Source of the DNA: an uncultured Leptolyngbyaceae cyanobacterium
Lineage (GTDB): Bacteria; Cyanobacteriota; Cyanobacteriia; Leptolyngbyales; Leptolyngbyaceae
NCBI GenBank assembly: GCA_938023035.1
Contig: CALIDI010000002.1
Coordinates: forward strand, 1-64,000
Direction: 5' to 3'
Length of the DNA stretch: 64,000 nucleotides
The position numbers were made by a program, and so were the translations under genes. Numbering within the stretch: the stretch's first letter is position 1; every line of letters starts with the position of its first letter. Of this stretch, positions 1,308-14,956 are shown piece by piece. The notes under the pieces were generated by a model, which saw only the letters and a list, made by a program, of their open reading frames with translations, was not told where the DNA came from and ran no database searches.

Positions 1308-4300
1308 ATGAACCCGAAAGAAATTCCTCTAAGGATGAAAAAATCTGTCTCATCCGATGTTGAACCCTGTGCTGAGGCTAATTCCCCATCGTTTGCTGCG
1401 GTATCTCTCATCGCCCTTTTGACCAATCATCCTCACCAAAATGAGGAGGTACTCCGACTCATTGCAGATAACCTGTCGGACGTTTTGGTGGTTTACGATA
1501 CTGAACTCCGGTTCTGCTTCTTGAATGCTCGGGCTGTTCGTCTGTTTGGCCAAGCTGAGGCCAATGTGTTAGGACGCACAAGTGAAGAGGTTTTACCATC
1601 GGCGCTGGCAGAGCTGTATCTGCCGCTCTTGCAGCAAGCACTACAGCAGCAAAAAGTGCAAGTGGTGGAAGCTCCCCTGCCGGTTCCTGCGGGTGGCGAT
1701 CGCCCCTTCAGAATCTTTTGCGTGCCGATATTAGATGACACTGACCGGGTTCATGCAATTTTACTGATTGCCACCGATATCACCGCTGTACAGTTGCCGC
1801 AGGGAGGCTTACCGCCGCCTCAAGCTCAACTCAGCGACATCCTGGATCGTGCTCCGGGGGCGATCGCCCATTGCCGCATCTATCAGAATGCAACCTGGGA
1901 AGATGACTATATTTCAGCAGGGAGTGAAACTCTCTACGGTTATACCGCAGCAGAACTGCTAGCAAATCCGCATCTGTTTGTCTCCCGAATCGACCCCGAA
2001 GATTTAGAAACCGTAATCCGGCCAGCCTTGAGGCAACTAGCTCCAGGAAATGCGAGCACCACGGAATTTCGCTTTCGGCATAAAGATGGCAACCTGCGTT
2101 GGATTAGTCGCAGTTGGGTGACCTATCACGAGGATACCGCTGACCATTGGCAGGCGGTTTCAACCAGCATCGATATGACAGCGCGCAAACAGGCCAGCCT
2201 TGAGCTACAGCAGGTACTCCAGCAAGAGCAGCAGGCGATTCAGCGAGAACGACTGATCAGCGCCATTGCGCAAAACATTCGGCAGTCCCTCAATCTCAAT
2301 TATATCCTGACGACCACTGTAGAAGAAGTGCAGCAATTCCTTCAGGCGGATCGGGTTGTCATTTTTCGCTTTAACCCAGATTGGAGCGGCAAAATCGTGG
2401 CAGAAGCTCTGGAGGAAGACACGCCTGCCATTGTAAATCAGGTTATCCATGATCCCTGCTTTTGCGGCTCAATGGTGGAGGCCTATCGAGCTGGGCGTAT
2501 TCATCGCCTAGATGATCTGTATGCAGAAGACTTGCCTCCCTGCTACGTCGAATTCCTGAGTCAGTTTCAAGTCCGGGCAACCTTAGTGCTACCCATTCTA
2601 GTGCGGCATGATCTTTGGGGTTTACTCATTGCCCATCAGTGCAGCAGCCCTCGCCGCTGGAATGAGGTGAACCAACACATCCTGCAACAACTAACGACTC
2701 AGCTAGCGATTGGGATTCACCAGGCTGAGCTATACCAGCAAACCCAAAAACAGGCACAACGGGAACGCTTGCTAAACCGGGTGATTCAGGCAATTCGTAA
2801 TTCTCTAGAGTTGGATACTATTTTTGCAACAGCGACGACTGAATTGAGTCGATTATTGCAGTTAGATCGGGCCGCAATCGTTCAATATTTGCCAAAACGG
2901 GCGATCTGGCTGAATGTCGCTAGTTACCAGCGTGGGGCGGAGTTGCCAGATGGGTTGGGGTTAGAAACTCCCGATCAGGATAATTGGGTTGCAACCCAAC
3001 TAAAACAGGGCGAAGTCGTTAGGATTGGCGATGACGCTGCTGCTGACATGATGAATCAAGCCTTTGGCGAATCCTATGGCGGTAGTTGGTTGCATATCCC
3101 GATTCAAATTCGTGGTGAGACTTGGGGATCCTTTAGTTTGAATCACCAGCAGCAGCATTGGGATTGGCAAGATTGGGAGTTGAATTTGGTAACTGCAATC
3201 GCCGATCAGCTAGCGATCGCGATCCAACAATCTGAACTTTATCGGCAGGTGCAACAGCTCAATAGTAGCCTTGAGACACAGGTTGAAGAGCGAACCGTGC
3301 GGTTACAACAAGCCCTCCGGTTTGAAGATTTACTGCGGCGAATTACCGATAAAGTGCGGGAAAGCCTGGATGAGGAACAGATTTTACAAACAGCCGTGCG
3401 AGAATTGGCGAACGAATTAGCCGTCGAGTGTTGCAATGCCGCCCTCTATAGTGAAGACCTGAAAACACTGACCATCTGTTACGAGCATATCCGCTCGCAT
3501 CGAGTGCAGGCCTTACAGGGGCAAGTCGTGCCGGTGGACAGCATGATTGACATTCACGCGCAACTGTTGCAGGGCTGCCAAACCCAGTTTTGCCCGCTCC
3601 CTCCTGTGCAGATGCGTCGAGATAGGGTGCACCTGTTCTCGATGCTCAATTGTCCGCTGATGGATGATCAGAGCTTACTCGGCAGTATGTGTTTATTTCG
3701 CCCCAGTGAGGCGTGTTTTGATGAATTAGAAATGGGGCTGGTGCAGCAAGTTGCAAACCAATGTGCGATCGCCCTGCGGCAGTCGCGGCTTTATCAAGAA
3801 TCTCTGGCTCAGGTGACAGAGTTAGAGCGACTCAATAACCTAAAGGATGATTTTCTTAGTACGATTTCTCACGAATTGCGCACACCCCTCTCTAACATGC
3901 GCATGGCCACTCAAATGCTAGAGCTAATCCTAACCCGTGCTGACTTAATTAACCAGCCGACGACCCCTGCCAGCCGCTATTTTCAAATTTTGAAAGATGA
4001 ATGTCAGAGAGAGACGTCTCTGATCAATGATTTGCTAGAGCTAACCCGAATGGATGCAGCCACTGACCCGCTGTTACTAACGTCCATTGACTTGACTATT
4101 TTTTTACCCCATCTGGGAGAAACCTTTCAAGAACGCTTCAAAACCCAGCAGTTGCAGTTGACCTATGCTCTAGAAGTGAACCTGCCGCGCGTAACCACAG
4201 ATCTCTCTTACCTAGAGCGAATTTTGACAGAGCTATTGACCAACGCCTATAAGTACACGCCACCCCGGCAAGTGGTGACGATTTTGGCCACTCATAGCGC

Positions 4301-4553
4301 TGATCGGGTACAGGTTGGTGTGCGTAATTCAGGAGTTGAGATTCCCTTGGTTGAGCGCGATCGCATCTTTGAAAGATTATATCGCATTCCCAGCGCTGAC
4401 CCCTGGCGACATAGCGGTATTGGCTTAGGTCTGGCCCTCGTCAAGAAACTGACAGAGCGATTGGGCGGCACGATCACCCTTAAAAGTGGAGAAAATCAAA
4501 CAACCTTTACCCTAGATCTGCCCATTGATCTATCGCTAGCGTTAGGCGGCTAA
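1308..4553 (+). CDS. PAS/GAF sensor histidine kinase with a DXCF cyanobacteriochrome-type GAF domain
   Basis: A soluble 1081-residue histidine kinase, probably a photoreceptor. Order of domains: PAS (about 45-160), PAS (about 170-300), GAF1 (about 320-475), GAF2 (about 490-645), coiled coil, GAF3 (about 670-835), HisKA with phosphoacceptor His855 in SHELRTP, then an HATPase domain with N-box LLTNAYKY and G-box GIGLGLAL. GAF1 contains DPCF with Cys384 and, 28 residues later, Cys412 in PCYVEF followed by QFQVRATLVLP. These are the two bilin-linking cysteines of DXCF cyanobacteriochromes, and the PDWSGKIVAEA stretch is also typical. GAF2 and GAF3 lack this pair. No membrane segment is seen. No receiver is fused, so the partner regulator is unknown. 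The ATG at 1308 is chosen as the first start; an AGGGG lies about 12 bases upstream. The kinase call is firm; the chromophore is inferred. Confidence 0.93.
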   Translation: MNPKEIPLRMKKSVSSDVEPCAEANSPSFAAVSLIALLTNHPHQNEEVLRLIADNLSDVLVVYDTELRFCFLNARAVRLFGQAEANVLGRTSEEVLPSALAELYLPLLQQALQQQKVQVVEAPLPVPAGGDRPFRIFCVPILDDTDRVHAILLIATDITAVQLPQGGLPPPQAQLSDILDRAPGAIAHCRIYQNATWEDDYISAGSETLYGYTAAELLANPHLFVSRIDPEDLETVIRPALRQLAPGNASTTEFRFRHKDGNLRWISRSWVTYHEDTADHWQAVSTSIDMTARKQASLELQQVLQQEQQAIQRERLISAIAQNIRQSLNLNYILTTTVEEVQQFLQADRVVIFRFNPDWSGKIVAEALEEDTPAIVNQVIHDPCFCGSMVEAYRAGRIHRLDDLYAEDLPPCYVEFLSQFQVRATLVLPILVRHDLWGLLIAHQCSSPRRWNEVNQHILQQLTTQLAIGIHQAELYQQTQKQAQRERLLNRVIQAIRNSLELDTIFATATTELSRLLQLDRAAIVQYLPKRAIWLNVASYQRGAELPDGLGLETPDQDNWVATQLKQGEVVRIGDDAAADMMNQAFGESYGGSWLHIPIQIRGETWGSFSLNHQQQHWDWQDWELNLVTAIADQLAIAIQQSELYRQVQQLNSSLETQVEERTVRLQQALRFEDLLRRITDKVRESLDEEQILQTAVRELANELAVECCNAALYSEDLKTLTICYEHIRSHRVQALQGQVVPVDSMIDIHAQLLQGCQTQFCPLPPVQMRRDRVHLFSMLNCPLMDDQSLLGSMCLFRPSEACFDELEMGLVQQVANQCAIALRQSRLYQESLAQVTELERLNNLKDDFLSTISHELRTPLSNMRMATQMLELILTRADLINQPTTPASRYFQILKDECQRETSLINDLLELTRMDAATDPLLLTSIDLTIFLPHLGETFQERFKTQQLQLTYALEVNLPRVTTDLSYLERILTELLTNAYKYTPPRQVVTILATHSADRVQVGVRNSGVEIPLVERDRIFERLYRIPSADPWRHSGIGLGLALVKKLTERLGGTITLKSGENQTTFTLDLPIDLSLALGG

Positions 4554-7160: not shown

Positions 7161-7892
7161 CTAGGAAACGAGGCCGGATCGCAATGCCCGCACGGCAGCT
7201 TCCGTGCGATCGTTGGCACAAAGCTTACTCAGAATGTTGCGAACGTGGGTTTTGACAGTTCCGATAGTGATATACAATCGCTCGGCGATCGCCTCATTAG
7301 TACAGCCAGACACAATCAATTCCAGTACATCCAGTTCGCGCTCGGTGAGCGGGTAGGTTTCAATCACCTTTTCCATCTCAGGATCGACGGCACCAATGGC
7401 GATCGTCCGTTTGTCAGCGTCTTGCGAGGCGGGAATGCCTTGCCGCATCTGTCGCAGCACAATGCTAGCTACAGCAGGATCAATCCATGCACTGCCCGCA
7501 TGAGTGGCTTTGATTGCCTCTGTCAGGCGCTCCATGCCAATATCTTTCATACAGTAGGAGTCTGCCCCGGCGGCAAAGGCGGCCAATACTGATTCTTCAT
7601 TGCCCTGCATGGTTAGCACCAGCACCTTCGTCCCCACCGTATTGGGTTCAGCCGTTGCCTGCTCTGACTGAAACCTGCGAAATTGGCGGGTTAATTCGAT
7701 TCCATCGATTCCTGGTAAGCCAATATCCACTAGCGCCACGTCAGGTTGGGTCGTTTCTAACAGCCTCAGTCCATCCACACCGTTGGCCGCTTCGCCGGTT
7801 ACGGTTAGCCCTGGCTGCCCCTGTAGAGCGGTGCGTAGACCGATCCTAACAACATCATGGTCTTCAATCAAGGCAACTTGAATCGTATCCAT
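7161..7892 (-). CDS. NarL/FixJ-family response regulator
   Basis: A 243-residue DNA-binding response regulator. The N-terminal receiver starts IQVALIEDHDVVRIGL and has the phosphoacceptor Asp in DVALVDIGLPG. It carries a short insertion (QSEQATAEPNTVG) before the LVLTM strand and ends GADSYCMKD. The C-terminal LuxR-type helix-turn-helix contains LTERELDVLELI and IGTVKTHVRNILSKL. An ATG at 7892 is chosen over one at 7940 because AGGAG lies about six bases upstream and the receiver then starts at once. It is divergent from the PAS kinase at 8146, a candidate partner, and convergent with the Ser/Thr kinase. Its domain plan is the same as that of the regulator at 19873. Confidence 0.93.
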   Translation of the reverse strand: MDTIQVALIEDHDVVRIGLRTALQGQPGLTVTGEAANGVDGLRLLETTQPDVALVDIGLPGIDGIELTRQFRRFQSEQATAEPNTVGTKVLVLTMQGNEESVLAAFAAGADSYCMKDIGMERLTEAIKATHAGSAWIDPAVASIVLRQMRQGIPASQDADKRTIAIGAVDPEMEKVIETYPLTERELDVLELIVSGCTNEAIAERLYITIGTVKTHVRNILSKLCANDRTEAAVRALRSGLVS

Positions 7893-8145
7893 AGAGGTCT
7901 CCTGGGCAGCTAGCGCAACGGGCTGAGTTAATTGCATCATAATCTCCCGATCTATGCTTCAAAAGATATTTAATATTTAGACAGTGCTCATTTCACCGGA
8001 TTCCGATTCTCGAGAGAACTTCCACAGGGTAGAGGTTCAGCAGATGAGAGTTCTATCTTTCGGTAGAGTTATAGCAGGGCATCCCCTTGCGTAGGATGTT
8101 TGCACTACCTCCTTAACCCCTCTAGGGCGATCGCCCCAATATTGC

Positions 8146-9750
8146 ATGGCCTCTCAGTTTTCTTCTACCTGGGATACTTGCCTTTCTTCCCAATCGGCTG
8201 CCCCTTCGCCCGATACCTTACTGGAGCGTTTATGTCTAGCCATTGATGCCGCCAAGATTGGTATCTGGGATTGGCACCTGACAACCGATCAGGTTTTTTG
8301 GAACCATCACCACGAGCAATTGTTTGGCTATTTGCCAGGGCAGCCCCTGCGAACCCATTCTGATTGGATTCAGCGCGTGCATCCTGATGACCGAGCCAGG
8401 GTTGAGGCAACGATGCAAGCTGCACTCAAAGAATGCCAGCCTTGCCACTGCGAGTATCGAATTGTGCACCCCGATGGCCAGGTTTATTGGGTGGAGTCCT
8501 TTGGGCAGGCCCACTTTGATAGCACCGGTCAACCCGTGCGGATGGTGGGCACTGTGACTGATATTACGACCCGTAAACAAACAGAAGCTGCTCTCCGTCA
8601 AAGTGAAGAGTTAGCCCAGTGGCGGCTGGCAGAAATTGAAGCCCTCTACGCCACAGCCCCGATTGGCCTATGTTTTTTAGATACTCAGTTTCGCTACAGG
8701 CGGATTAATCAATACCTAGCTGAGATTAACGGTTTGCCTGTAGAAGCGCATGTGGGGCATACAGTGCGCGAAATATTGCCAGAACTGGGGGAGGTACAAG
8801 AACCCTATTTTCGGCAGGTATTGCAGACAGGGGTGCCAATTCTAGATATCCAGATTTGTGGTAAGACGCCTGCCCAGCCAGGGGTAGAGCGGGTTTGGTT
8901 GGTGAGTTATTACCCGTTGCAACAGGCCGATGGCACTGCCCTTGGGATTAATATTGTGGCCCAAGAAATTACTGAGCGTCAGCAGTCGGAGTTAGCGTTG
9001 CAAGAGCGCAACCTGGAACTGACCCGGCTAAACTCAACTTTAACTGGGCTGGCGACACTGCTCGATAAACGGAACCGTGAGTTAGACCAATTTGCCTACA
9101 TTGTTTCCCATGACTTAAAGGCACCTTTACGGGGGATTGCTAATCTCTCCCAATGGCTGGAAGAGGATTTGCAGAGTAGCTTGCCGCCAGAAGGCCAGGA
9201 GCAATTGCGGTTACTACGGCAGCGAGTACAACGCATGAATGCGCTGGTAGACGGCTTGCTCCAGTACTCCCGGTTAGAACGCAGCGAAGCAGAGGTGGAA
9301 ACAGTCGATGTCGAAAAATTGTTGAGAGATATTGTGGATCTACTCAATCCACCAGCCACTTTTACAATTGAGCTAGCGCCCAATTTGCCGGTCTTGCTGG
9401 CGAAGCGGCTGCGGCTTGAGCAGGTGTTTACCAATCTGATTGGTAATGCGATCAAACATCATCCCCGTTTAGATGGGCGGGTTAGGGTGAGTGTTGCCGA
9501 TCAGGGCGATTTCTATGCCTTTGCTGTGAGTGATGATGGGGCAGGCATTGCCCCAGAGTTTCACGATCGCGTGTTTGCGATTTTTCAAACCCTGGATGCC
9601 AGCCACTCAACTGATAACACCGGCATTGGGTTAGCGATTGTGAAAAAGATTGTGGAGACAGAAGGGGGGGTGATTTGGCTGGAGTCGGAACTGGGGAAGG
9701 GAACCACGTTTTGTTTTACCTGGAGTAAGCAACCGCTGCTGACCCCTTAA
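8146..9750 (+). CDS. PAS-PAS sensor histidine kinase, Cph1-like kinase core
   Basis: A soluble 534-residue histidine kinase. PAS1 (about 38-150) is of the PAS_3 type (GIWDWHL, VHPDDRARV, GTVTDIT). PAS2 spans about 165-285 (LCFLDTQFRYRRIN, NIVAQEITERQ). After a coiled coil comes HisKA with His322 in VSHDLKAPLR, then HATPase with NLIGNAIKHHP and GIGLAIVKKI. The SHDLKAPLR plus FAIFQTL pattern is that of the Cph1-like kinase group. It is the first of five co-directional signalling genes up to 14956, and 25 bases separate it from the next one. That gene has a very similar kinase core, so the two are probably duplicates. No ligand for the PAS domains is evident. Confidence 0.93.
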   Translation: MASQFSSTWDTCLSSQSAAPSPDTLLERLCLAIDAAKIGIWDWHLTTDQVFWNHHHEQLFGYLPGQPLRTHSDWIQRVHPDDRARVEATMQAALKECQPCHCEYRIVHPDGQVYWVESFGQAHFDSTGQPVRMVGTVTDITTRKQTEAALRQSEELAQWRLAEIEALYATAPIGLCFLDTQFRYRRINQYLAEINGLPVEAHVGHTVREILPELGEVQEPYFRQVLQTGVPILDIQICGKTPAQPGVERVWLVSYYPLQQADGTALGINIVAQEITERQQSELALQERNLELTRLNSTLTGLATLLDKRNRELDQFAYIVSHDLKAPLRGIANLSQWLEEDLQSSLPPEGQEQLRLLRQRVQRMNALVDGLLQYSRLERSEAEVETVDVEKLLRDIVDLLNPPATFTIELAPNLPVLLAKRLRLEQVFTNLIGNAIKHHPRLDGRVRVSVADQGDFYAFAVSDDGAGIAPEFHDRVFAIFQTLDASHSTDNTGIGLAIVKKIVETEGGVIWLESELGKGTTFCFTWSKQPLLTP

Positions 9751-9775
9751 TCGTTGTTGTCTTACTGGTCTACTT

Positions 9776-11620
9776 ATGCCTCGTCGCTTTTTACTTCAAC
9801 CGGTTCAACCCCTGTGGCAGCGGCTGCCACTGCATCGGCGAGGGGCGATCGCGGCAGCCATTCCAACCGCTTGCCTACTTTTTTCTTTAGGAACCTTTAC
9901 ATGGTCTCAGCAAGCTATTAGGGAGGCCCAAGCATACGTCGATCAGACAACGGAAATCTTGCAATTAAACGATGATATTTTAGTCACCCTGGTCAATGCA
10001 GAAACTAGTGTGCGGGGGTATCGTCTCACCGGAAGTAAGAAATTCCTCGATCTCTATGAAAATGCGGTTACTACGCTGCCAGACAAGTTTCAACGATTAC
10101 AAGCGCAGACAGAGGGCCAACTGCATCAGCAGCAACGGGTTGCCCAAATTCAGGCAGCAGCCCAAGGCCGCTTGCAGTTTTTAACCGATGGGGCAACGAA
10201 ACCGCCGCTATCCTTCAACTCTGCTGACCAGTTGCAGGTAGAAATTGATTTGATTGAACAGGGGCGCGCCCAGATGGAGCGATTTCGGGCGGAGGTCGCC
10301 CAGTTTAAGCAGGAAGCACAACAAGAGCTTGACCAGCACCAAGAGACACTTCAAGATCAGCAGGCTTGGCTCACCCGTGTGTTATGGTTGAGTGCTGGGG
10401 TCAGCGCTATTGGGTCTGGATTAGCGATTTACTTGTTTTCTCAGTTAGAAAAAGAGCTGAAACTGCGAGAACGCCGGTTAAGTGAGAGCAAAACCCTGAT
10501 TCAAGCGATTACGGCCAATGTGGTGGATGGGATTCTGACCTTGACCTCCGACGGCCGGATTGAGACCCTCAATTTGGCAGTGTTGGAGATGTTTGGCTAC
10601 CCCCCGGAAGCATTGTATGACCAACCCCTGGCCAAGTTGCTGATCCCTCCCCAAGCCGATGATGATAAGGCCAGTTTATGGCACGATCCGGCCACTTACT
10701 CAGGCTCTCGGCTGCAAACGGTTGGGTTTCGTCAGGATGGGCAAGACTTTCCGATTGAGGTAACGATCAGTCACATTTCCCTGGAAGAACGGTTAATTGT
10801 CATTATTCGGGATGTGACCGAGCAACAGCAGGCCAGGGTCAGGTTGCAAACCCATGCGACGGAGTTGGCTCGGCTGAATGCCGCTCTGACGACAACGAAT
10901 ATTGCCCTGGAAGCGCGGAACCAGGAGCTGAACCAGTTTGCTTACATTGCTTCCCATGATTTGAAGGCTCCCCTGCGGGCGATCGCCAATTTATCAGAAT
11001 GGCTGGAAGAGGATTTAGCCGACCTCCTGCCCGACGAAAATCGTCAGCAAATGGAGCTACTGCGCGGGCGAGTGCACCGAATGGAGGCTCTGATTAACGG
11101 CTTACTGGCTTACTCTCGAGCCGGTCGAAGCGAGGCGCTAGTTGAATTTGTCAATTTAGCTGAGCTTCTGGCCGAAATTATTGACTGGCTCAACCCTCCC
11201 CCAACCTTTCAGTTTGAGATCGCTCCCGACCTGCCCACTCTGAACGCACGAAAACTCTTGCTCCGCCAAGTCTTTTCTAACCTGATAGATAATGCCATCA
11301 AACATCATCCTACTGCAAATGGCGTGATCACAATTACCGCCAGGGATCAGGGCAATGCCTATGAGTTTGCTGTAGCCGATGACGGCAACGGGATCGACCC
11401 TCGCTATCACGGCAAAATTTTCATGATCTTTCAAACCCTGGAAGCCCGCGATACAAAGGAAAGTACAGGTGTTGGGTTGGCGATCGTCAAAAAAATTGTG
11501 GAAGCAGAAGGGGGCGACATCCGGATTGACTCCACCCTTGGTCAAGGCGCGACCTTTTACTTCACTTGGCCTAAATCTCCCCTGGGGCAGACAGAAACCC
11601 CAGAAAGATCCGCCGTTTAG
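9776..11620 (+). CDS. CHASE3-PAS membrane sensor histidine kinase
   Basis: A 614-residue membrane kinase. A hydrophobic segment at about 23-45 and another at about 205-225 flank an extracytoplasmic CHASE3 domain, recognised by NAETSVRGYRLTGSKKFLDLY. A PAS domain follows (about 240-355; GILTLTSDGRIETLN, VIIRDVTE). HisKA then carries His394 in ASHDLKAPLRAIANL, and the HATPase domain has NLIDNAIKHHP and GVGLAIVKKI. The kinase core is closely similar to that of the upstream gene, so the input domains differ while the output is shared. The next gene encodes an Rcp1-like receiver that may be the partner of both kinases. The start is the ATG at 9776. Confidence 0.93.
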   Translation: MPRRFLLQPVQPLWQRLPLHRRGAIAAAIPTACLLFSLGTFTWSQQAIREAQAYVDQTTEILQLNDDILVTLVNAETSVRGYRLTGSKKFLDLYENAVTTLPDKFQRLQAQTEGQLHQQQRVAQIQAAAQGRLQFLTDGATKPPLSFNSADQLQVEIDLIEQGRAQMERFRAEVAQFKQEAQQELDQHQETLQDQQAWLTRVLWLSAGVSAIGSGLAIYLFSQLEKELKLRERRLSESKTLIQAITANVVDGILTLTSDGRIETLNLAVLEMFGYPPEALYDQPLAKLLIPPQADDDKASLWHDPATYSGSRLQTVGFRQDGQDFPIEVTISHISLEERLIVIIRDVTEQQQARVRLQTHATELARLNAALTTTNIALEARNQELNQFAYIASHDLKAPLRAIANLSEWLEEDLADLLPDENRQQMELLRGRVHRMEALINGLLAYSRAGRSEALVEFVNLAELLAEIIDWLNPPPTFQFEIAPDLPTLNARKLLLRQVFSNLIDNAIKHHPTANGVITITARDQGNAYEFAVADDGNGIDPRYHGKIFMIFQTLEARDTKESTGVGLAIVKKIVEAEGGDIRIDSTLGQGATFYFTWPKSPLGQTETPERSAV

Positions 11621-11785
11621 CAGACCTTTCTGAGCCAGTATTTGGATTAAATTTAACGAAGGTATACCTTGCGCCCTTGGGATCGATCGGTCGGCCAGGC
11701 TGTTTTCTGGCTGGCTGAAAAAGCATCGGCCAGTCAAAGGTGTGCGACCTGTTGTGACTTGGGAGTTTGGGGGTTAGCGGCCTCA

Positions 11786-12214
11786 ATGCAAGATCGAGTG
11801 ATTCATATTCTGTTAGTTGAGGATGATGAGGTCGATGTGATGAATGTCCGGCGGGCATTCAAGAAGGGGAATATAACCAATCCACTTTATGTTGCAGGTA
11901 ATGGGCTAGAGGCTCTGGAAATGCTGCGAGGCACGGCCACAGAAGACTCTATTCCTCCTGAACGTCGGCTAGTTTTGCTAGATTTGAACATGCCTCGTAT
12001 GGGTGGCATTGAGTTTTTGCAAGAGTTACGGTCAGATCAGCACTTGCGATCGATTCCGGTGATTGTGTTGACGACCTCAAATGCTGACCAGGATCGGGTA
12101 CAGGCTTATAACCTAAATGTGGCCGGCTATTTACTGAAGCCTGTAACCTTTAGCTCATTTGTTGAAGTGGTGATTGCCTTAAATAAGTATTGGACACTGT
12201 GCGAAATGCCCTAG
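11786..12214 (+). CDS. Single-domain response regulator, Rcp1-like
   Basis: A receiver-only protein of 142 residues. Seen: ILLVEDDEVDVMNVRRAF at the acidic pocket, phosphoacceptor Asp in VLLDLNMPRMGG, the conserved Thr/Ser in VIVLTTSN, and Lys in GYLLKPV. The long first helix and the LNMPRM(G/D)G motif match receivers of the Rcp1 group that pair with Cph1-type kinases. There is no output domain, so it is probably a phosphorelay shuttle or acts by protein contact. The frame is open upstream, but the ATG at 11786 is chosen because the receiver fold starts there. It follows the two Cph1-like kinases on the same strand, which makes them likely partners (inferred). Confidence 0.92.
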   Translation: MQDRVIHILLVEDDEVDVMNVRRAFKKGNITNPLYVAGNGLEALEMLRGTATEDSIPPERRLVLLDLNMPRMGGIEFLQELRSDQHLRSIPVIVLTTSNADQDRVQAYNLNVAGYLLKPVTFSSFVEVVIALNKYWTLCEMP

Positions 12215-12541
12215 ATGGCAAGATCTTGAAGTTTTCGCCTGAATTGGAGTCATCTTGCTCTGTTTTAAGTCCATTCTACAGGTTCTATCAGTTCAGTTTT
12301 CTCTAGTCGCAGGTTTACGCGCGGGTTTCACAAATGCCTCAGAATTGCTGGGCGGCTTGCTCTATTGTTGTATTCAGCCCATGTACCCCCGGAAGCAGTA
12401 AAGATGTATTCCCTGTTTGTTTTTCACAGATTGGAGCCACAATAGTCCTTCGGTAAGGATTTCTAAGACGCACGAACTTTTTGACAGGACTCTGTCCGCT
12501 TTTGCTCACCTTAATTTAGTACCGATTTAATCGGCTTAGAC
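12215..12541. other. Spacer, possible promoter region of the receiver-kinase gene
   Basis: No gene seen. A small hairpin TCCTT-CGGT-AAGGA lies at 12446-12459. TTGACAGGACTCTGTC (12481-12496) combines a perfect -35 hexamer with an inverted repeat GACAG-GACT-CTGTC. A similar layout occurs upstream of the Crp-like gene at 34450. Confidence 0.4.
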
Positions 12542-13783
12542 ATGGATAAGGCCTTCACTATCTTAATTGTGGATGACGATGAGCTAGACCGAATGGCTGT
12601 ACGTCGGGCACTGACAAAGGCAAAGGTGAACGCCATTTTTACCGAAGTGGATAACTGCGCTAGAGCGATCGCAACACTCCAAACCCAGACCTTCGATTGT
12701 ATTTTTTTAGACTATCGTTTGCCAGATCGAAATGGCCTGTCTTTGATTCAAGAAGTCCGAGAAACTGGAACAAAGGTACCGTTAATCGTGTTGACAGGTC
12801 AAGGGGATGAGCAAACCGCTGTGGAATTGATGAAGGCGGGGGCTTCAGACTATCTTTCTAAAGCTCGCATTTCTCCAGATGTGCTAGAACGAGTTCTGCG
12901 CAATGCCTTGCGGATTTACGAAGCGGAACAAAAGGCCGCGATCGCTAATCAACGCTTGCAAGAAAGCTATGAGCAACTCATTCTCAAAAACCAGGAGTTG
13001 GAGCAGCAGCGCTTACAGATTCAGCGGCAGAATCTGCAACTGATTGAGGTGGCGAAACTAAAGTCGGAGTTTCTGGCAACCATGTCCCACGAGTTGCGCA
13101 CCCCCTTGAATGCCATTATTGGGTTTTCTCAAATGCTGTTGCGTCCCCAAACGGGGGCACTTAGCCCCAAACAGTACCAGATGACCCAGCACATCTTTAA
13201 CAACGGCAAGCATTTGCTAGAGATGCTAAATGAAATTTTAGATTTTTCTCGCTTAGAAGCAGGGCGCTTGGATCTGCGACTGGAAACCTTTGAGTTGCCC
13301 AGGGTTATTAATTCTACCATTGAAGAGTTGCGCTCTCTGGCCGAGCAAAAACAGTTGGAACTCTATGCCCAGATTGACCTGACGCCGCCAGAGGTGGTGA
13401 ATGACCCGGCCAATGTGCGCCGGATTTTGACCAATCTGATTTCTAACGCCATTAAGTTTACAGAGACAGGCCGGGTCTGGGTAGAGGTGACGGAGCCGTT
13501 TCCCAATCGGGTTGCGATCGCTGTGCATGATACTGGAATTGGCATTGCGGCTAAAGATCTGCCCCATATTTTTGAAGCCTTTCGCCAGGCCGACCAGGGC
13601 AGCAATCGGCGCTTTAGTGGCACGGGGCTAGGCTTGGCGATTACAGAGTCGTTGGTGCTAAAAATGGCAGGCTCAATCACCGTTGAGAGCCAAGTGGGTC
13701 AGGGGTCCGTCTTTCGGGTGGAGCTGCCTCGCTATATTCAACGGGCTGACAAACCCACCCAACTGTCGGATAGTGCGTCTTGA
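12542..13783 (+). CDS. Receiver-histidine kinase (REC-HisKA-HATPase)
   Basis: A soluble 413-residue hybrid in which the receiver precedes the kinase. The receiver (about 6-125) has ILIVDDDELDRMAVRR, an Asp in CIFLDYRLPDRNG and the Thr of IVLTGQG. A coiled coil (about 130-170) leads to HisKA with His183 in [16 protein letters not shown], then HATPase with NLISNAIKFTETG and GTGLGLAI. With a receiver at the front it can take phosphate or contact from an upstream kinase and alter its own kinase activity. It is 37 bases from the next receiver-kinase and follows the Rcp1-like gene, so it is plausibly part of the same relay. No DNA-binding domain is present. Confidence 0.93.
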   Translation: MDKAFTILIVDDDELDRMAVRRALTKAKVNAIFTEVDNCARAIATLQTQTFDCIFLDYRLPDRNGLSLIQEVRETGTKVPLIVLTGQGDEQTAVELMKAGASDYLSKARISPDVLERVLRNALRIYEAEQKAAIANQRLQESYEQLILKNQELEQQRLQIQRQNLQLIEVAKLKSEFLATMSHELRTPLNAIIGFSQMLLRPQTGALSPKQYQMTQHIFNNGKHLLEMLNEILDFSRLEAGRLDLRLETFELPRVINSTIEELRSLAEQKQLELYAQIDLTPPEVVNDPANVRRILTNLISNAIKFTETGRVWVEVTEPFPNRVAIAVHDTGIGIAAKDLPHIFEAFRQADQGSNRRFSGTGLGLAITESLVLKMAGSITVESQVGQGSVFRVELPRYIQRADKPTQLSDSAS

Positions 13784-13819
13784 TCGGTTACCCCGTTTCC
13801 TGTTGTTTAGCAGTTTCTG

Positions 13820-14956
13820 ATGCGAATGTCGTTTCAACCAGCTATCAAAATTGATCGCATCCTTTCTGTGGACGATACCCCGGCCAACCTAGCGCTGATT
13901 GAAGCCATTTTGGAAGAAGAGGGCTATGCGATCACCTCGGTTAACGATGGGGCGGCGGCTCTAGAGATGATCAAAAGCAACCCGCCCGACCTGATTTTGT
14001 TGGATGTGATGATGCCAGAAATTGATGGCTATGAGGTCACCCGCCAGGTTCGCCAGATGAATCTGACTACCTACATCCCGATTTTGTTGATTACGGCCCA
14101 TGATCATGCCGATGTGGTCTGCGGCTTAGATGCGGGAGCCGATGAATTTGTGCGTAAGCCGGTCGATGCCGATGAGCTGATTGCCCGGGTGCGATCGCTG
14201 CTGCGGCTAAAGCGGAGCATTGATGAGCGCGAGCAGATGATGTTGCAGCGGCAGGATTTTATTGCCCACCTCACCCACGATTTACGCACGCCTCTGGTCG
14301 CAGCCGATATGATGCTCAAGCTCTTTCGTAAGGAAGCATTTTGCCCCCTCTCGCCTGAAATGCATGAAGCGGTCGGGGCTTTGATCCGCAGTAACCAGAA
14401 TCTGTTGGAAATGGTCAACACCCTGTTGGAGGTGCAGTCCTACGACGCGGGGGCCAAGAAGTTTACCCCGATTCCCTGTAATCTTTGGGAAATTTCCCAG
14501 GAAGTAGTGCAACAGTTGGCTCCTATTGCTGAGGACAAGGGGATTGAACTGAAATTGGAGTTAATTGGCAAAAATTTGGAGGATTTGGGCCGGGTCACGG
14601 TCACGGGGGATTGTTTGGAACTCCATCGCATGCTGGGCAACTTAATTGGGAACTCCCTCAAGTTTACTGATAAGGGTTTTGTGCATGTGCAGTTAATCCC
14701 TGTGCCGGAGGGCGATCGCACCCTATTAATCAAGGTGCAAGATTCTGGCCCTGGCATTCCTGCGGATGAAATCGCCGGACTGTTTCAACGCTTTCGTAAG
14801 GGCAACCACAAACAGGCAGGCAGTGGGTTGGGGTTGCATCTGGTGCAGCGCATTCTAGAAGTTCATGACGGCTCAATTAGCGTTGAGTCAGAACTTGGGC
14901 AGGGCACTACGTTTACGGTGCAACTCCCTATCGAAGCCTCGGTTTCTCAGAGATAG
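13820..14956 (+). CDS. Receiver-histidine kinase (REC-HisKA-HATPase)
   Basis: A soluble 378-residue protein. The receiver (about 10-128) shows ILSVDDTPANLALIEAIL, phosphoacceptor Asp in LILLDVMMPEIDG, and Lys in FVRKPVD. His153 in AHLTHDLRTPLVAADMM is the predicted phosphorylation site of the kinase, which has a different H-box from its neighbour. The HATPase domain has NLIGNSLKFTDKG and GSGLGLHLVQ. It is the last gene of the co-directional array starting at 8146. The next gene is convergent, so the array ends here. ATGs at 13820 and 13826 are both possible starts. A partner cannot be told from sequence. Confidence 0.92.
   Translation: MRMSFQPAIKIDRILSVDDTPANLALIEAILEEEGYAITSVNDGAAALEMIKSNPPDLILLDVMMPEIDGYEVTRQVRQMNLTTYIPILLITAHDHADVVCGLDAGADEFVRKPVDADELIARVRSLLRLKRSIDEREQMMLQRQDFIAHLTHDLRTPLVAADMMLKLFRKEAFCPLSPEMHEAVGALIRSNQNLLEMVNTLLEVQSYDAGAKKFTPIPCNLWEISQEVVQQLAPIAEDKGIELKLELIGKNLEDLGRVTVTGDCLELHRMLGNLIGNSLKFTDKGFVHVQLIPVPEGDRTLLIKVQDSGPGIPADEIAGLFQRFRKGNHKQAGSGLGLHLVQRILEVHDGSISVESELGQGTTFTVQLPIEASVSQR

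Follow-up and report, generated by a model that had tools for sequence, protein, structure and literature searches.

The question raised by this locus is whether the sensor histidine kinase encoded near the start of the window (the whole 64,000-nucleotide stretch of DNA analysed here) is a photoreceptor and, if so, of which type. Its open reading frame (positions 1308 to 4553, + strand, like all features of the gene given below) starts with ATG and is intact, with 1081 codons and zero internal stops. Pfam matches to the 1081-aa protein were PAS_4, PAS_3, three GAF domains, HisKA and HATPase_c, giving the layout PAS-PAS-GAF1-GAF2-GAF3-HisKA-HATPase_c with GAF1 as the candidate cyanobacteriochrome (CBCR) domain. 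The two PAS domains that the first-pass annotation had placed upstream of GAF1 were confirmed at residues 54-161 (PAS_4, 1467-1790, E 1.2e-21) and 201-276 (PAS_3, 1908-2135, E 1.3e-12). GAF1, delimited by sequence and fold matches, spans residues 319-476 (2262-2735). It is followed by the distantly CBCR-like GAF2 (about residues 491-645, 2778-3242) and by GAF3 (about residues 687-823, 3366-3776, Pfam); as already noted in the first pass, both are devoid of the bilin-linking cysteine pair, with no Cys at either position. The output part consists of a HisKA dimerisation/phosphoacceptor domain (residues 846-917, 3843-4058, Pfam) and HATPase_c (residues 965-1073, 4200-4526, Pfam). The kinase motifs found were SHELRTP, which holds the predicted phospho-histidine H855, an N box NAYKY at 979, and GIGLGLA at 1037. 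The G1 box (4323-4346) reads RNSGVEIP, with Asn where the DxGxG motif usually has Asp; judged from this motif, ATP binding by the kinase might differ.

Pfam and NCBIfam could not decide whether GAF1 belongs to the cyanobacteriochromes, since no model specific to this family was among the matches. The top NCBIfam name, c-di-GMP phosphodiesterase, was rejected, because it scored 285 bits against a cut-off of 1600 bits and has only GAF domains in common with the protein. Among solved structures the best match of GAF1 was the dual sensor histidine kinase 6oap (E 8.9e-49), and the matches were cyanobacteriochromes. When only the fragment with the Cys pair was searched, TePixJ came out on top (2.7e-21) in an ungapped alignment, with DPCF on DPCF and CY on CH. 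A plain phmmer search thus retrieves TePixJ, and the domain is not cryptic, as it had been called. The DPCF motif (residues 382-385, 2451-2462) contains C384, the second Cys and counterpart of TePixJ C494. It lies 28 residues before C412, the canonical bilin-linking Cys (TePixJ C522), which is followed by Y413 in place of TePixJ H523 (C412-Y413, 2541-2546) and by QFQVRATLVLP downstream. From the first base of D382 at 2451 to the last of Y413 at 2546, the residues were as originally read.

A model of GAF1 beginning at residue 301 was predicted with AlphaFold2 from 40 homologues (pLDDT 88, pTM 0.85) and superposed on two structures of blue-absorbing TePixJ. Model residues 25-185 fell on residues 435-595 of 4fof (Z 23.7) and 26-174 on 436-584 of 4glq. 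The offset is 410 throughout, and with the model start at residue 301 this puts model Cys84 and Cys112, that is C384 and C412, on TePixJ 494 and 522. In TePixJ, bilin ring A is joined by C522 and bilin C10 by C494 (PMC6955287). In both the alignment and the predicted model, C412 accordingly occupies the ring-A position on helix alpha-4, and C384, within the Asp-X-Cys-Phe motif D382-P-C384-F385, occupies the C10-linking position; neither lies outside the pocket. The TePixJ-type spacing proposed in the first pass hence holds in sequence and in the predicted structure.

A maximum-likelihood tree of 55 domains grouped GAF1 with six domains of other, mostly Leptolyngbya-like cyanobacteria into one clade (support 100/99). 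In the wider DXCF tree the backbone has poor resolution and does not fix the deeper placement of this clade. GAF1 is 53-72% identical to the aligned orthologues, and DPCF and CY are kept in all seven members. Together with the database matches, this conservation indicates that the Cys pair is more than a chance occurrence. It also bears on the reading that GAF1 is degenerate, having lost bilin binding and serving signal transmission only. The protein does contain non-binding domains of this sort, GAF2 and GAF3. For GAF1, however, the two Cys, Asp382 and the residue pattern around them are retained in 7/7 clade members, which is not what one would expect of a decayed pocket, and we consider this reading highly improbable.

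Orthologous kinases were found in Leptolyngbyaceae M33_DOE_097, Leptolyngbyaceae HOT.MB2.61, Scytolyngbya HA4215-MV1, filamentous cyanobacterium CCP2 and Cyanobacteria bacterium J069 (L039-L043), and also in L019. They agree with the window kinase in DPCF, CY and the loss of the D-ring Asn discussed below. A GAF-GAF-GAF-kinase core is common to the window kinase and the orthologues examined (L039-L042, L019), whereas the number of PAS domains varies: L039 has three, L040 combines PAS domains with an additional cyanobacteriochrome-like GAF, and L042 and L019 have no PAS match. L041 shows the same PAS-PAS-GAF-GAF-GAF-kinase layout as the window kinase and the others differ mainly in the N-terminal part, which does not support the initial impression of an unusual domain order. 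The HOT.MB2.61 orthologue (L040:3516-7433) carries two cyanobacteriochrome-like GAFs in series, the extra one upstream, with DECF/CL/K and then DPCF/CY/L, a residue pattern that suggests a two-colour kinase. Descriptions of the orthologous kinases were not found in the literature searched.

The same genome contains one heme oxygenase gene and, as the single bilin reductase, PcyA (343 bits, above the cut-off of 206). Phycocyanobilin is therefore the expected chromophore, and the host has the genes to supply it. From the register of the Cys pair, its conservation in the clade and this supply we conclude that GAF1 is almost certainly a DXCF cyanobacteriochrome. Other photoreceptor domains in the genome comprise at least five further dual-Cys GAF domains (contigs C34, C16, C17, C14 and C52), two domains of red/green type (C34, C33) and one RcaE-like domain (C10). 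On C17 (16711-18246; L123, L007) a PixJ-like protein has three tandem cyanobacteriochrome GAFs with, in order, DPLL/CH, DPCF/CH and, where the second Cys has been lost, DP-F/CH; of these, the DPCF/CH domain in the middle groups with TePixJ. The RcaE-like GAF (C10:119164-124199; L128, L038) is located about 4 kb from pcyA and has EEVF, CL and Lys at position 535 (TePixJ numbering, as throughout); it is possibly a green/red sensor near a bilin gene.

How common the features of GAF1 are was assessed in 98 distinct dual-Cys GAF domains, collected from bacterial and archaeal species genomes with seed peptides outside the Cys region and supplemented by relatives from whole-genome searches. This sample is biased toward relatives of the query and its proportions do not represent the whole family. 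The Asp of the DXCF motif is present in 96 of the 98 domains and a Cys spacing of 28 in 85. The residue after the canonical Cys is Tyr in 53/98 and His in 40/98. Hence, the earlier remark that GAF1 has Tyr instead of His at this site is right, but the feature is not notable, Tyr being the commonest residue in the sample. C386 (2463-2465), an extra Cys right behind DPCF, is found in GAF1 alone among the 98 domains. Position 535 is Asn in 73/98 and Thr in GAF1 (T425, 2580-2582). In the clade Asn is absent from 7/7 members, which have T, L, S, L, V, V and V. On the tree the Asn-535 state needs at least 12 changes, and losses also occur outside the clade.

As read from the aligned sequences, replacement of the D-ring Asn by Thr, Leu, Ser or Val in GAF1 and its orthologues is the one distinctive trait of this domain. 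Because of this loss, another photocycle may be considered for a DXCF cyanobacteriochrome of this kind, in which phycocyanobilin would be wholly or partly unisomerised, or the photoproduct red-shifted or unstable; blue/orange photocycles and fast dark reversion would be examples. In TePixJ, N535 is located at bilin ring D and reorients upon illumination (PMC6955287). Among the sampled references the residue at position 535 follows the colour class, with N in TePixJ, Y/F in red/green domains and K in the RcaE structure 8k9o, and the GAF1 clade has T/L/S/V there. Against such a photocycle, all remaining dual-Cys hallmarks are kept in GAF1, and a characterised protein with the same substitution at position 535 was not found; we regard it as unlikely, though to be taken seriously. 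A literature search on TePixJ Asn535 found nothing. It is quite doubtful that the clade forms a small DXCF sub-lineage with an unrecorded photocycle, in which the D-ring Asn gave way to small or aliphatic residues and C386 was added in this species only. Such a photocycle might involve a photoproduct of unusual colour, a response to thiols or redox state, or a fast dark reversion by which light intensity is read.

In typical DXCF domains phycocyanobilin is bound and isomerised to phycoviolobilin, and a Cys-C10 bond is present in the dark (PMC11284453). GAF1 very probably follows this course as a DXCF cyanobacteriochrome converting phycocyanobilin to phycoviolobilin and controlling the kinase as a blue/green switch. 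Chromophore attachment, colours and kinase control, including its direction, are given here as we infer them. Apo-GAF1 would bind phycocyanobilin that the cell makes with its heme oxygenase and PcyA, with ring A linked to C412, and isomerise it to phycoviolobilin. A second bond, from C384 to C10, would be present in the dark-adapted 15Z state, resulting in a blue-absorbing form. Blue light would flip C15=C16 and break the C384-C10 bond to give a green-absorbing form, and green light or darkness would restore the former. The signal would run from the C-terminal helix of GAF1 via GAF2-GAF3 to the kinase part, where it would alter autophosphorylation of H855 and transfer to a response regulator.

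The colours were further judged from tuning positions. L417 aligns with TePixJ Leu527, a position occupied by Leu in most cyanobacteriochromes and by Tyr in some red-shifted ones (PMC7504144). Positions on strand beta-2 and helix alpha-4 have been tied to the tuning of teal-DXCF sensors (PMC5240096). If GAF1 belonged to these blue/teal types, the D ring would be trapped by a Phe on each element, shifting the photoproduct to the blue. At the alpha-4 position (Cys+8) GAF1 indeed has Phe420, but 5/6 orthologues have Leu and 1/6 Tyr, and the beta-2 position is Ile in GAF1 and Ile/Val across the orthologues, which disfavours this tuning and makes it very unlikely. Both positions are those we presume to be equivalent, from counting residue numbers along the NpR6012g4 sequence. 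With Leu at the Leu527 position and the beta-2 Phe absent, a blue/green photocycle is most likely. The chief ground for doubting it is the replacement of the D-ring Asn (T425). Non-conservation of H498/W499 and the lack of PixJ orthology also count against the blue/green switch.

No response regulator gene adjoins the kinase gene on its own strand. The nearest one encodes a NarL-type regulator (7161-7940, - strand) and lies beside another kinase. This divergent gene precedes four more histidine kinase genes in tandem (8146-14956, + strand), which encode a PAS-PAS-kinase, a CHASE3-PAS-kinase and two receiver-kinase proteins.

Since the domain is not cryptic and its arrangement recurs in orthologues, the window gene is less special than first thought. 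With its DXCF cyanobacteriochrome domain the histidine kinase joins an established family of photoreceptors; it does not represent a new type of sensor. This well-studied family gains one more uncharacterised kinase that probably senses blue light, and the notion of Tyr as an unusual residue behind the canonical Cys of DXCF domains is corrected; the overall picture of cyanobacterial light sensing is unchanged. The GAF1 clade offers a natural test of the role of the D-ring Asn in the DXCF photocycle, in which a difference in tuning or stability would be testable.

Comparison with known systems excluded several classes. In the violet and near-UV dual-Cys sensors described in PMC5240096 the second Cys comes from an insertion loop. 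GAF1 has no insertion in the TePixJ alignment and its second Cys sits in DXCF, so the insert-Cys class was rejected and with it the suggested violet type. The extended red/green class was rejected because GAF1 has VIHDPCF, not WXDXXL, and falls outside the AnPixJg2/Slr1393/NpR6012g4 clade of the tree. With the TePixJ GAF domain (blue/green DXCF; PDB 4fof, 4glq, 3vv4, 6p58) GAF1 shares the fold, the Cys register and spacing, equivalents of Asp492 and Leu527, and an ungapped aligned region. Sequence identity is 36-38%. It differs from TePixJ in having Tyr for His523, Phe for Gln526, Thr for Asn535, and S388/M389 for H498/W499, which bind the B-ring propionate in TePixJ (PMC6955287). The output differs as well, TePixJ being a methyl-accepting chemotaxis protein; PixJ orthology was rejected on this ground and because TePixJ groups with the C17 gene of the same genome (100/96). 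The alignments to TePixJ together with HisKA and HATPase_c bear out the original proposal of a DXCF cyanobacteriochrome with histidine kinase output. The closest solved relative in sequence and fold is the dual sensor histidine kinase 6oap/6oaq/6ob8 (46-47% identity, Z about 24-25), likewise a cyanobacteriochrome GAF within a histidine kinase, which has DQYF (no second Cys) and CH where GAF1 has DPCF and CY.
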